Source of the DNA: Bremerella sp. TYQ1 | GTDB taxonomy: Bacteria; Planctomycetota; Planctomycetia; Pirellulales; Pirellulaceae | Direction: 5' to 3' | Length of the DNA: 64,000 nucleotides | Assembly: GCF_020150455.1 (NCBI RefSeq) | Contig: NZ_CP083740.1 | Location: 4,278,001-4,342,000 of the forward strand | Notes under the pieces: model-generated | Database searches by the model: none | The model's input: only the letters and a program-made list of their open reading frames with translations | What the model was told of the DNA's origin: nothing | In this document: in pieces, positions 52,940-56,995 of the stretch | Position numbering within the stretch: the first letter of the stretch is position 1 | Layout: every line of letters starts with the position of its first letter | Translations under genes and position numbers: made by a program

Positions 52940-54361
52940 ATGAAACTCGCTCATCTTAAGAAGGTGCTCGTTGCGCCGGCGCTGCTTAGCGTCGTCGGTA
53001 TGAGCATCGCCCCGGCTCCCGTACTCGCGCAGAGTTGCGGTGGCTGTGGTCCGTCGTACAAGATCGTCACTCAGACCGTTTACGAAGAACAGCCCGTTAC
53101 CGCGATGCGCACGGAATACGAACGGGTCGAAGTTCCGAAACAGGTCACCACCTATCGCCCCGTCTGGGAAACCCAGCGTCGCGAGCGCACGGTGACTGTC
53201 GCGAAGCCAGTCACTGAAACTTCGGAACGCGAAGAACGCTACACCGTGATGAAACCGGTGTGGAAGGAACGTGTCGAAGATCGCAGCTACAATCAAACGC
53301 GCTACGTCACCGAAACCGAAATGCGTGAGCAACGCAACACGGTTCTTCGTCCCGTGACCGAAACGCAATATCGCGAAGAACAACGCGTTGTGCGTCGCCC
53401 AGTTACGGAAACGGTCATTCAGAATCAGACCGTGACGATGTACCAGCCGCAGACTGTCTGCAAAACGCAGTACGTCGATCAAGGTGGCTATCAAACGACT
53501 CAAGTTTACACGCCTGGCCCAACGCGGAATCGTTTGCGTTGGACGCAAGGCCAGACTTACTTCGACCCTGCTACCGGTCAGTATCAATACGACCGCGGCG
53601 GTCTGCACTGGATTCCGGAACAACGCCCCGGCAACGTGAGCAACGTGACGCAGTACGTTCCGAATGTTGTTGCCCAACAGGTTCCTGTCACCCAATACGT
53701 GCCGACCCAGGTTCAACAGCAAGTTCCTGTTCAGCGGGTTCGTTACGAAGACGAAGTTCAAGTCCGTCAGGTGCCAGTCAATGTGACTCGCTACGAACAA
53801 GTCGAACAGGTTCAGCAGATTCCGGTTTCCGTGCAAAAGCCGGTCACCGAACGTGTCGAGAACATGGTCACCGTGAAGTACTGTGACTGGGTTCAAGAAG
53901 AAGTCGTTCGCAAGGTTCCTATCACGACCACCAAAATGGTCTACGAAGAACGCACCGAACCTTATGAAGTGAAGGTTCAAAAGTGGGTTGCCGAAACCAG
54001 CACAGTGACGGAAACCAAGTTGGTGCCGAAGCAGGTTCAGTACACCTACACGCGTCGCGTTCCTCGTACGGTTACCATGCGAGTTCCTTTGGATGCCTAC
54101 GGCAACCCAATTTACACGGCCCCTGCCCCGGCAACGTCGGCCAGCCGTGTGATTTTGCCTCCGGCGAATCCAACGCCAGCCGTTCGTGAAAGCGTTGTCG
54201 AAAAGCCTTCGACGATCATCGAACGCCGGATCATCACTCCTTCCGAGCCACCACCGGCTCCGTCGCAGGAAGAGGAAGATGCCGCTGGTAACAAAGCGAC
54301 CAAGGAAGACGACACATCTTCCCCCAGCGATGATGATCCTACGGGTCAACCCATGCTGTAA
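52940..54361 (+). CDS. Exported V/T-rich repeat protein
   Basis: 473 residues. Signal peptide MKLAHLKKVLVAPALLSVVG with Ala/Pro end, then CGGCGPSYKIVTQTVYEEQ. The body is made of many degenerate ~12-25 residue repeats of V-x-x-P-V-T/E-x type (VTETEMRE, VTETQYRE, VTETVIQN, VPVTQYVP, VPVQRVRYE). A DUF-like pair of short blocks near residue 200 (WTQGQTYFDPATGQYQYDR) interrupts. The C-terminus is Pro and acidic rich. It resembles planctomycete cell-envelope repeat proteins; the exact family is uncertain. Confidence 0.78.
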   Translation: MKLAHLKKVLVAPALLSVVGMSIAPAPVLAQSCGGCGPSYKIVTQTVYEEQPVTAMRTEYERVEVPKQVTTYRPVWETQRRERTVTVAKPVTETSEREERYTVMKPVWKERVEDRSYNQTRYVTETEMREQRNTVLRPVTETQYREEQRVVRRPVTETVIQNQTVTMYQPQTVCKTQYVDQGGYQTTQVYTPGPTRNRLRWTQGQTYFDPATGQYQYDRGGLHWIPEQRPGNVSNVTQYVPNVVAQQVPVTQYVPTQVQQQVPVQRVRYEDEVQVRQVPVNVTRYEQVEQVQQIPVSVQKPVTERVENMVTVKYCDWVQEEVVRKVPITTTKMVYEERTEPYEVKVQKWVAETSTVTETKLVPKQVQYTYTRRVPRTVTMRVPLDAYGNPIYTAPAPATSASRVILPPANPTPAVRESVVEKPSTIIERRIITPSEPPPAPSQEEEDAAGNKATKEDDTSSPSDDDPTGQPML

Positions 54362-54601: not shown

Positions 54602-56995
54602 ATGAACTTTTTCTCGAATCTGTTCGATACGTCTGACTTTCCTCAGCGGTGGTACTGTGGCGAGTGGTCGGCCGGTCATGGCTGGCTGCATATCTGCTCA
54701 GATGTGGGAATCTGGGGAGCCTACTTCGCGATACCAGCTTTGTTGGCTTATTTCCTGTCGCAAAGAAAAGACCTTCCCTTCCGCCGAGTCTTCATCCTGT
54801 TTGTCGCATTCATTCTGTTGTGCGGCATGACTCACCTGATGGATGCGATCATCTTCTGGTGGCCAGCCTATCGATTGGCCGGCTTGTTGAAGTTGACGAC
54901 GGCGATTGTCTCGTGGGCAACGGTAATCGCGTTGGTCTATAACATTCGCGAAGTCCTCAGTCTGCGTAGTCCCCAGGAATTGGAACGAGAAATCGAGGCT
55001 CGCAAATCGGCCGAACATGCCCTGCGAGAAGCAAACGAAGCGCTGGAACTGCGCGTTCAGGAACGTGTCGATCAGCTCAATAAAGCCAACGCAGACTTAA
55101 AGGAACGCGAAGCCCGTTGGCGAAAGTTCGTCAGTTCCAACATTATCGGCGTGGGTGTCGCCGACGCCGATGGAAGTTGGTTGGAAGTCAACGGCGAGCT
55201 CTTACGGATGCTTCACTGCACCGAAGAAGAGTTCAACCGAGACGGACTTCGCTGGTACGACATGACGCCGCCAGAATACCTTCCGCGTGACATCGAAGGC
55301 ATCGAGACGGCCGACAAAGAAGGTGCGTGCGCCGCCTACGAAAAGGAATACATCACCAAAGATGGTGCCCGGGTTCCTATCACGCTTGGCTATACCCCCG
55401 TCGAAGATCGACCTGGCGAGTACATCTGTTTCGTGCTCGACCAGTCGCGACTGAAGGAAACCGAAATGGCTCTGAAGCAGAGTCAGGCCGAATTCTTCCA
55501 ACTGGCCGATGCCATTCCGCAGATGGCGTGGATGACGCGTGCCGATGGTTACGTCGATTGGTTCAATCAACGCTGGTACGAATATACCGGCACCACGCAG
55601 GAAGATTGCCTCGGCTGGTCGTGGACCAAGTGCATCGATCCAAACGAACTTAATCGCGTGAAAGCAGCGTGGGATAAAAGTATCGCCACCGGAGAACGGG
55701 TCGATATCGTCGCTCCGATTCGTGCGGCCGACGGCACTGTCCGCCCATTCCTGACACGTGCTTTGCCGCTGAAGAATGACGAAGGCGAGATCGTCCGTTG
55801 GTTCGGTACCAACACCGACATCAGTGAACAGCAAGAGATTCAGGAAGAACTCCGAACGGTGGCCGCGCAGCTTTCGGATGCCGACCGCAAGAAGGATGAA
55901 TTTCTAGCGACACTCGCCCACGAACTTCGCAATCCACTCGCCCCAATCCGCATGGGTTTGGAATTGATGAAGATGGCCGGAAACGATCCGGAGTTAATCG
56001 ACGAGACGCGGGAAACGATGGAACGTCAAACGCAACAGTTGATCACCTTGGTTGACGACTTGCTGGATGTTTCTCGCGTAACGCGCGGCAAGCTGAACTT
56101 ACGAAAAGCGGACGTCAAGATTTCCGATGTGATCGAAAGTGCTGTCGAGACTTCGACGCCATTGATCGACGACTCGGAACATGCCCTGGATGTCAACATT
56201 AGCGATCCCGACATCACCATTCATGCCGATCCCCATCGTCTCGCTCAGGTCGTCTCCAATCTGCTGAACAACGCCGCCAAGTACACGCCGGACGGAGGCA
56301 AGATTTCGCTGAGTGTCGAGAAGACCGACGCGAACCACGTTGCCATTCAAGTTCAAGATACGGGGATCGGTATTCCTGCCGATATGATCGATAGCATCTT
56401 CGCGATGTTCACGCAGATCGATCGTTCGATGGAACGAAGTTATTCAGGACTGGGCATCGGTTTGACATTGGTGCGTTCGCTCGTCGAAATGCATGGCGGA
56501 ACCGTATCGGTCCGCAGCGAAGGACAAGACAAGGGAAGCACATTCACTGTCATACTTCCGACGAAAGCGGAAGACCAGCCGCAGCCAATCGCGGGACTGC
56601 CCACCGAAGGTCTGGCACTCAAACGAGGCAAGCATCGCGTCCTGGTCGTCGACGACAACAAAGCAGCCGCCGAGATGCTGAGCAAAGTGGTCAAGATGCT
56701 CGGCAACACGGTCGCTACCGCGGAAGATGGCCAACAAGCGATTGAAGTCGCTGAGAAGTTCCAGCCTGAGATCATCCTGATGGATCTCGGCATGCCGAAG
56801 ATGAACGGCTACGAAGCGGCGCGACATATTCGCCAGCAAGATTGGGGCAAAGAGATCCTACTGATCGCGCTTACCGGCTGGGGCCAACAAGAGGATCGTG
56901 ACCGTACCAAAGATGCCGGCTTCGATCACCATCTCGTTAAACCGGCCGAGCCTTCCGAGCTACAGCGGATTATCAGCCAGCACAAGTCGACGTAA
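54602..56995 (+). CDS. Hybrid histidine kinase with ethylene-receptor-like membrane domain
   Basis: 797 residues. Residues 1-110 hold three membrane helices of the ethylene receptor type: Asp34, Ala40, Tyr41, Ile44, Pro45, Ile71, Cys74 and His78 match ETR1 D25, A31, Y32, I35, P36, I62, C65 and H69 with one constant offset of 9. A coiled coil follows (about 120-165), then two PAS-like domains (about 175-285 and 290-415), a HisKA domain with phospho-acceptor His440 in LAHELRNPL, an ATPase domain (NLLNNAAKYTP, DTGIGIPADM, GLGIGLTLVRSLVE) and a receiver domain with Asp728. In plants Cys65 and His69 bind the copper that binds ethylene. Output partner unknown. Confidence 0.93.
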   Translation: MNFFSNLFDTSDFPQRWYCGEWSAGHGWLHICSDVGIWGAYFAIPALLAYFLSQRKDLPFRRVFILFVAFILLCGMTHLMDAIIFWWPAYRLAGLLKLTTAIVSWATVIALVYNIREVLSLRSPQELEREIEARKSAEHALREANEALELRVQERVDQLNKANADLKEREARWRKFVSSNIIGVGVADADGSWLEVNGELLRMLHCTEEEFNRDGLRWYDMTPPEYLPRDIEGIETADKEGACAAYEKEYITKDGARVPITLGYTPVEDRPGEYICFVLDQSRLKETEMALKQSQAEFFQLADAIPQMAWMTRADGYVDWFNQRWYEYTGTTQEDCLGWSWTKCIDPNELNRVKAAWDKSIATGERVDIVAPIRAADGTVRPFLTRALPLKNDEGEIVRWFGTNTDISEQQEIQEELRTVAAQLSDADRKKDEFLATLAHELRNPLAPIRMGLELMKMAGNDPELIDETRETMERQTQQLITLVDDLLDVSRVTRGKLNLRKADVKISDVIESAVETSTPLIDDSEHALDVNISDPDITIHADPHRLAQVVSNLLNNAAKYTPDGGKISLSVEKTDANHVAIQVQDTGIGIPADMIDSIFAMFTQIDRSMERSYSGLGIGLTLVRSLVEMHGGTVSVRSEGQDKGSTFTVILPTKAEDQPQPIAGLPTEGLALKRGKHRVLVVDDNKAAAEMLSKVVKMLGNTVATAEDGQQAIEVAEKFQPEIILMDLGMPKMNGYEAARHIRQQDWGKEILLIALTGWGQQEDRDRTKDAGFDHHLVKPAEPSELQRIISQHKST

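Follow-up and report, generated by a model that had tools for sequence, protein, structure and literature searches.

Ethylene receptors outside plants have been directly demonstrated in only a handful of organisms (Synechocystis, Rhizophagus irregularis, and Azospirillum; PMC11819568). Besides those of cyanobacteria, putative receptors are noted for proteobacteria and for "other bacterial phyla" (PMC11819568, PMC6682694, PMC6586836, PMC6944256, PMC7700396, PMC10452086, PMC10968091), the one in Azospirillum being functional (PMC11819568, PMC7700396). C65 and H69 hold Cu(I), with one copper per monomer, a role in positioning H69 is predicted for D25, and K91 of helix 3 is involved in output (PMC11819568, PMC6586836). 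AzoEtr1 of A. brasilense strain Sp7 is a 525-aa protein whose residues 1-130 bind 14C-ethylene, and the cyanobacterial SynEtr1 is also light-sensing (PMC11819568).

The gene compared with these systems here lies in a window of 64,000 nucleotides from Bremerella sp. TYQ1 (contig NZ_CP083740.1, positions 4,278,001 to 4,342,000), where an open reading frame on the forward strand (54602-56995, ATG to TAA) is translated into 797 aa. We conclude that the 797-aa protein is an ordinary member of a known receptor family and, judging from its sequence, probably an ETR1_N-family membrane ethylene receptor that would feed Cu(I)-dependent sensing into a hybrid phosphorelay.

Domain layout and binding-site residues

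The features of the gene, in window coordinates, are as follows.

54602..56995 (+): whole gene, ethylene-binding-domain hybrid histidine kinase (ORF and Pfam, 797 aa)
54602..54676 (+): pre-helix-1 segment, residues 1-25, with the class motif R16-W17-x-C19-G20-x-W22 (motif conservation)
54677..54964 (+): ETR1_N three-helix ethylene-binding domain, residues 26-121 (PF25487, seven residues kept)
54965..55096 (+): charged linker, residues 122-165, probably coiled (hydropathy and sequence)
55097..55471 (+): PAS domain 1, approximately residues 166-290 (second PAS_4 stretch; boundaries estimated)
55472..55861 (+): PAS domain 2, approximately residues 291-420 (PF08447, PF08448, and PF13426 at 303-411)
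55892..56086 (+): HisKA, residues 431-495, phospho-acceptor H440 in HELRNP (Pfam and sequence)
56228..56566 (+): HATPase_c with its N and G boxes, residues 543-655 (Pfam and sequence)
56639..56974 (+): receiver, residues 680-791, phospho-acceptor D728 in DLGMP (Pfam and sequence)

The predicted three-helix ETR1-like N-terminal domain was borne out, as PF25487 (ETR1_N) scores 127.6 bits for residues 1-130 alone and 122.7 bits in the whole protein, against a cut-off of 27 bits. This domain holds D34, Y41, I44, P45, I71, C74, H78, and K97, and the preceding residues 1-25 are expected to lie outside the cytoplasm. A histidine kinase transmitter is present, with HisKA and HATPase_c carrying the H, N, and G boxes. 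The two PAS domains, HisKA/ATPase, and receiver that had been proposed are confirmed for HisKA, HATPase, receiver, and PAS 2, with PAS 1 placed by a second PAS_4 stretch of estimated boundaries. AtETR1 has a GAF domain after its membrane domain, at the place where the 797-aa protein has PAS domains instead; Pfam gave no GAF match in the latter at E ≤ 0.001. NCBIfam models returned kinase families for the whole protein, each below its own cut-off (among the 25 listed of 172 matches). By sequence, no PDB chain was found for the membrane domain at E ≤ 1, and a PDB profile search yielded a single synthetic protein at E 0.21, which was discounted. One review calls the ETR1 domain structure "elucidated" (PMC10452086); no PDB chain was found for it.

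The original prediction was built upon eight AtETR1 residues said to be essential for ethylene or copper binding and to recur at a constant offset of 9 with no gap. All eight are present: D25, A31, Y32, I35, P36, I62, C65, and H69 of AtETR1 match D34, A40, Y41, I44, P45, I71, C74, and H78 at offset 9, and 22 of 45 residues across this stretch are identical to AtETR1. The constant offset holds for helices 1 and 2, but an offset of 9 across the whole domain is ruled out, since helix 3 sits at offset 6 (K91 of AtETR1 = K97) because the helix 2-3 loop is 3 residues shorter than in AtETR1; the shorter loop recurs in the bacterial rows listed from the alignments. Seven of the eight (D25, Y32, I35, P36, I62, C65, and H69) are the residues required for ethylene binding, a set to which A31 is not known to belong. 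The corresponding seven positions of the 797-aa protein (D34, Y41, I44, P45, I71, C74, and H78) are all kept. The numbering of D25, I35, P36, I62, C65, H69, and K91 in AtETR1 agrees with the literature (PMC11819568, PMC6586836). The eight-residue match exceeds chance, as the best result among 20,000 shuffles of residues 1-130 was five of eight at any single offset (22 shuffles) versus the eight observed.

The AzoEtr1 sequence was taken from a different A. brasilense strain, one of whose plasmids (L046) has a 525-aa ORF with D35, C75, H79, and K98 exactly at the positions numbered for strain Sp7 (PMC11819568), and this anchor renders the residue match independent of the AtETR1 sequence. AzoEtr1 aligns with the 797-aa protein at offset 1 without a gap; all 12 key positions that were compared, the first being C19 and the last S104, agree (D35/C75/H79/K98 = D34/C74/H78/K97), and 46 of 124 residues are identical. 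The two share the copper and binding residues, the helix-3 lysine, a single N-terminal cysteine, and a PAS-then-histidine-kinase order, but AzoEtr1 has an HGxC motif, one PAS domain, and a separate response regulator, whereas the 797-aa protein has an RWxC motif and a fused receiver. In common with the 797-aa protein, AtETR1 has a kinase and a receiver in addition to the three-helix domain with its seven binding residues; it differs in its longer helix 2-3 loop and its two N-terminal cysteines. In ethylene receptors, N-terminal cysteines provide the disulphide that links the dimer. The only N-terminal cysteine of the 797-aa protein, C19, is kept in 132 of 137 bacterial domains, and a single N-terminal cysteine has been reported for cyanobacteria (PMC6682694). 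The helix-3 lysine (K91 in AtETR1, K98 in AzoEtr1, K97 here) varies among these domains, being K in 95/137 rows, R in 34/137, and T in one orthologue. Cyanobacterial receptors (Pseudanabaena, Acaryochloris, and Kovacikia plasmid copies) have the same domain and residues, but belong to the HGxC class, while the RWxC motif is common to the 797-aa protein and a set of kinases from Planctomycetota and Bacteroidota. The eight scanned proteins, which are orthologues or RWxC-class kinases, differ in PAS number and in the presence of a receiver and Hpt.

Distribution and two domain classes

PF25487 was found above cut-off in 25 of 60 relatives (own genome counted), including all 8 other same-genus genomes; the sample drawn from its phylum gave 36 of 292, again with the own genome counted. 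The corresponding samples gave 16/247 for Bacteroidota, the phylum of a Mucilaginibacter genome, and 12/189 for the phylum of a Myxococcota (Polyangia) bin, or 13 at E ≤ 0.001, with the center genome included in both; none of 14 control genomes had the domain. Scanning named genomes with sequence patterns yielded 207 confirmed relatives; the 80 that were kept are nearly all planctomycetes or Bacteroidota by title, plus one Polyangia and one unclassified bin. Eighteen plasmid records carry the domain (Azospirillum, Acaryochloris, Pseudanabaena, Kovacikia, Rhizobium, Novosphingobium, Blastomonas, Rhodovastum, and Eleftheria). Spread by phages or viruses was rejected, as phages gave no match to the domain and none of 11 pattern stretches in viral contigs was confirmed. 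Overall, domain and residues support the proposed ethylene-receptor-type (copper-site) sensor kinase in a planctomycete. The counts from the three phylum samples do not bear out its description as unusual there, and homologues cannot be called mainly cyanobacterial when the domain is a named Pfam family and the papers place putative receptors in proteobacteria and other phyla (PMC11819568, PMC7700396). No description of a planctomycete ethylene receptor was found in the literature searched, and key papers on microbial receptors might hold an earlier mention.

Removal of contained copies reduced 161 domain hits to 137 distinct bacterial domains, the one from the 797-aa protein included, and 122 of these keep all seven binding residues (123 of 138 with AtETR1 added). 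The trees and the class-position comparison exclude four divergent or truncated domains (L138, L146, L147, and L161), the Myxococcota-bin phylum-sample loci are in no tree, and of the alignments, A1 holds the 797-aa protein with 26 of 37 loci and A3 the same protein with 79 of 80. Less expected than the family membership itself, bacterial ETR1_N domains fall into two supported classes, as judged by unrooted trees of an alignment of only 131 columns, in which either side could be paraphyletic. The split received 99 SH-aLRT in a 134-row domain tree and 98/93 in a careful one of 55 rows, for which 37 were chosen by hand from among the 116 of the RWxC class. One side has 18 rows, namely cyanobacteria, AzoEtr1, other proteobacteria, 4 planctomycete and 5 Bacteroidota-sample rows, and AtETR1, a long branch that adjoins the RWxC class with weak support in the 55-row tree. 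The RWxC side comprises all other planctomycete rows, that of the 797-aa protein among them, as well as the pattern-scan Bacteroidota and three more, and one Myxococcota row. The 797-aa protein thus falls outside the HGxC class of AzoEtr1 and the cyanobacterial rows.

Comparison of 116 RWxC with 17 HGxC rows revealed class-specific residues in or before early helix 1 (P14, R16, W17, G20, G27, and I31) and further along the domain (P59, A82, F85, R91, and V108), with H16 and G17 in 17/17 HGxC rows. Both classes share C19, W22, D34, Y41, I44, P45, F67, F70, I71, C74, G75, H78, and S104. As the pattern scan favors the RWxC class and inflates its sampling, class proportions were taken from profile-search loci, using only the best-scoring ones and calling the class by motif. 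On this basis, the planctomycete loci (L009-L045, of which near relatives contribute 12, counting the own locus, and the phylum sample the rest) are 30 RWxC, 4 HGxC, and 3 other of 37, Bacteroidota loci are 4 RWxC, 5 HGxC, and 1 other of 10, and loci from the phylum of the Myxococcota bin are 4 RWxC, 8 HGxC, and 0 other of 12. No RWxC-class member with an ethylene-binding assay was found in the literature searched, which we count against the receptor reading.

Several atypical members were also observed. Two divergent planctomycete ETR1_N kinases (L146:2327-5926, minus strand, and L147:4752-8201, plus strand) do not have the copper cysteine (C74Y and C74S), and other binding residues are absent as well, above all in L146; these kinases may sense something else or nothing. 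In L161 (G531, Bacteroidota sample), ETR1_N lies deep in a long frame, at residues 501-604 of the available part, and D34 is replaced by N. ETR1_N frames with no kinase match occur at L072:5977-6555, L123:5926-6612, L038:1279-1938, and L040:607-1368. A 960-aa frame overlaps the end of the one in L123, possibly due to an assembly frameshift, and the one in L072 has two frames upstream, one of 991 aa and one resembling a response regulator by eye.

Orthologues, selection, and genome context

Orthologues with the same neighbors are present in five of the eight same-genus genomes (G001, G003, G005, G006, and G007) and are 73.8-85.3% identical over their length. In all five, the same four genes lie upstream, a set that by eye starts with a Cu/Zn superoxide dismutase, and gyrB lies on the other side; among these loci of ≤17 kb, dnaN was seen in 3/5 and the gene after it, nucleoside-hydrolase-like, in 2/5, all of these genes being named by eye. 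Since the same upstream neighbors recur, recent horizontal acquisition is not supported. In G002, G004, and G008, the single PF25487 match falls outside the clade of the 797-aa protein, which indicates that the orthologue is missing from those assemblies. The ethylene-binding domain is under purifying selection among the six orthologues (79.7% identity, dN 0.144, and a dS of ~1.8, near saturation, from the 9 of 15 pairs that allowed its calculation). No other folded domain has quite so high a dN, the kinase parts being similar at 0.102-0.141, and the membrane domain is therefore no better conserved than the rest of the protein, which counts against the receptor reading. So does the G003 orthologue, which keeps the seven binding residues and has neither C19 nor K97.

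Several same-genus genomes also encode a second, shorter receptor, seen in G001 as a 529-aa open frame with PAS and kinase. In G001, G003, G006, and G008, though not in G002, its kinase match is closely followed downstream by a receiver match, an arrangement that recalls the AzoEtr1 gene pair. A 111-aa frame in G007 (L138:4772-5104, minus strand) has only the first part of the ethylene-binding domain (33 bits, profile positions 2-37) and by eye is a probable remnant of the shorter-paralogue type.

At the locus itself, the upstream gene ends at 54361 and the downstream gene is convergent. The former (52940-54361, plus strand) encodes a conserved protein of 473 aa with abundant V, R, E, and Y repeats, which is 74-87% identical in five same-genus genomes. 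No ethylene-related gene was recognized beside the gene for the 797-aa protein, which is a further point against a receptor. An operon with copper or ethylene genes was rejected, as neither kind was recognized there and the downstream neighbor is convergent. Promoter and terminator scans at the locus were at chance level. Elsewhere in the genome, three matches to the copper P-type ATPase model exceed the cut-off, one only with neighbors counted, which indicates that copper handling exists. There is no match to ACC deaminase or to PF03171, the 2OG-oxygenase family that includes the ethylene-forming enzyme; judged by these two families, an external source of ethylene would be the more likely one. 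Within the genome, the nearest relative of the PAS-kinase-receiver part is a region on the minus strand (G000:C1:1004841-1006712, L002), inside a 1796-aa frame.

Proposed mechanism and alternative readings

Cu(I)-dependent ethylene binding is the best-supported reading because the protein has the same residues as the published receptors. In the scheme that we infer, three transmembrane helices would place the N terminus outside and the C terminus inside, with one Cu(I) held between C74 and H78 of helix 2 and D34 of helix 1 positioning H78. Ethylene would bind the copper in a pocket formed with Y41, I44, P45, and I71, and binding would be relayed as a change in helix 3 (K97) and the linker; a second signal, from the cytoplasm, may enter through the PAS domains. 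Autophosphorylation at H440 could then be followed by transfer to D728 and a phosphorelay to a partner.

Three other explanations were weighed. Given its supported separation from AzoEtr1 and the cyanobacteria, the RWxC class could employ the same Cu(I) core for another small ligand (for example, another alkene, acetylene, or CO), with selectivity coming from the pre-helix-1 segment, and the class differences do lie mainly at residues 14-31 and loop edges, outside of the copper/ethylene core. We find this rather unlikely, as the ethylene-binding positions besides the copper ligands are kept too, and according to the literature AtETR1 binds ethylene even though its segment ahead of helix 1 resembles that of neither bacterial class. 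A sensor of copper itself, with Cu(I) loading at C74/H78 switching the kinase, has no obvious need for Y41, I44, P45, and I71. It would agree with the presence of C74 and H78 in 116/116 RWxC rows, the copper ATPases of the genome, and the superoxide dismutase (by eye) within the conserved neighborhood; however, the latter gene is ~4 kb off on the other strand, and copper ATPases are near-universal, being above cut-off in 13 of 14 control genomes, so we regard a copper sensor as improbable.

The three helices might also serve as a mere membrane anchor, with the PAS domains doing the sensing. PAS domains are indeed present, the L002 region is 53% identical to residues 166-792 even though the genome has one PF25487 match only, and dN of the membrane domain is no lower than elsewhere. 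This is nonetheless the explanation to which we give the least credence, given that D34, Y41, I44, P45, I71, C74, and H78 occur at 97-100% of the 116 rows, mostly from Planctomycetota and Bacteroidota. An ethylene receptor remains our preferred reading.

A broader and more doubtful suggestion is that Planctomycetota, Bacteroidota, and some Myxococcota might share a second, old receptor-domain class (RWxCGxW before helix 1), in which the copper/ethylene core is intact but the outer lid differs and the domain is adjusted to a different affinity or to some other small gas. If true, ethylene-type gas sensing would be a common signaling mode in these groups. The 797-aa protein, from a phylum that has been little studied, keeps a full binding site in a domain of the RWxC class, and the position of its gene in the chromosome is conserved.
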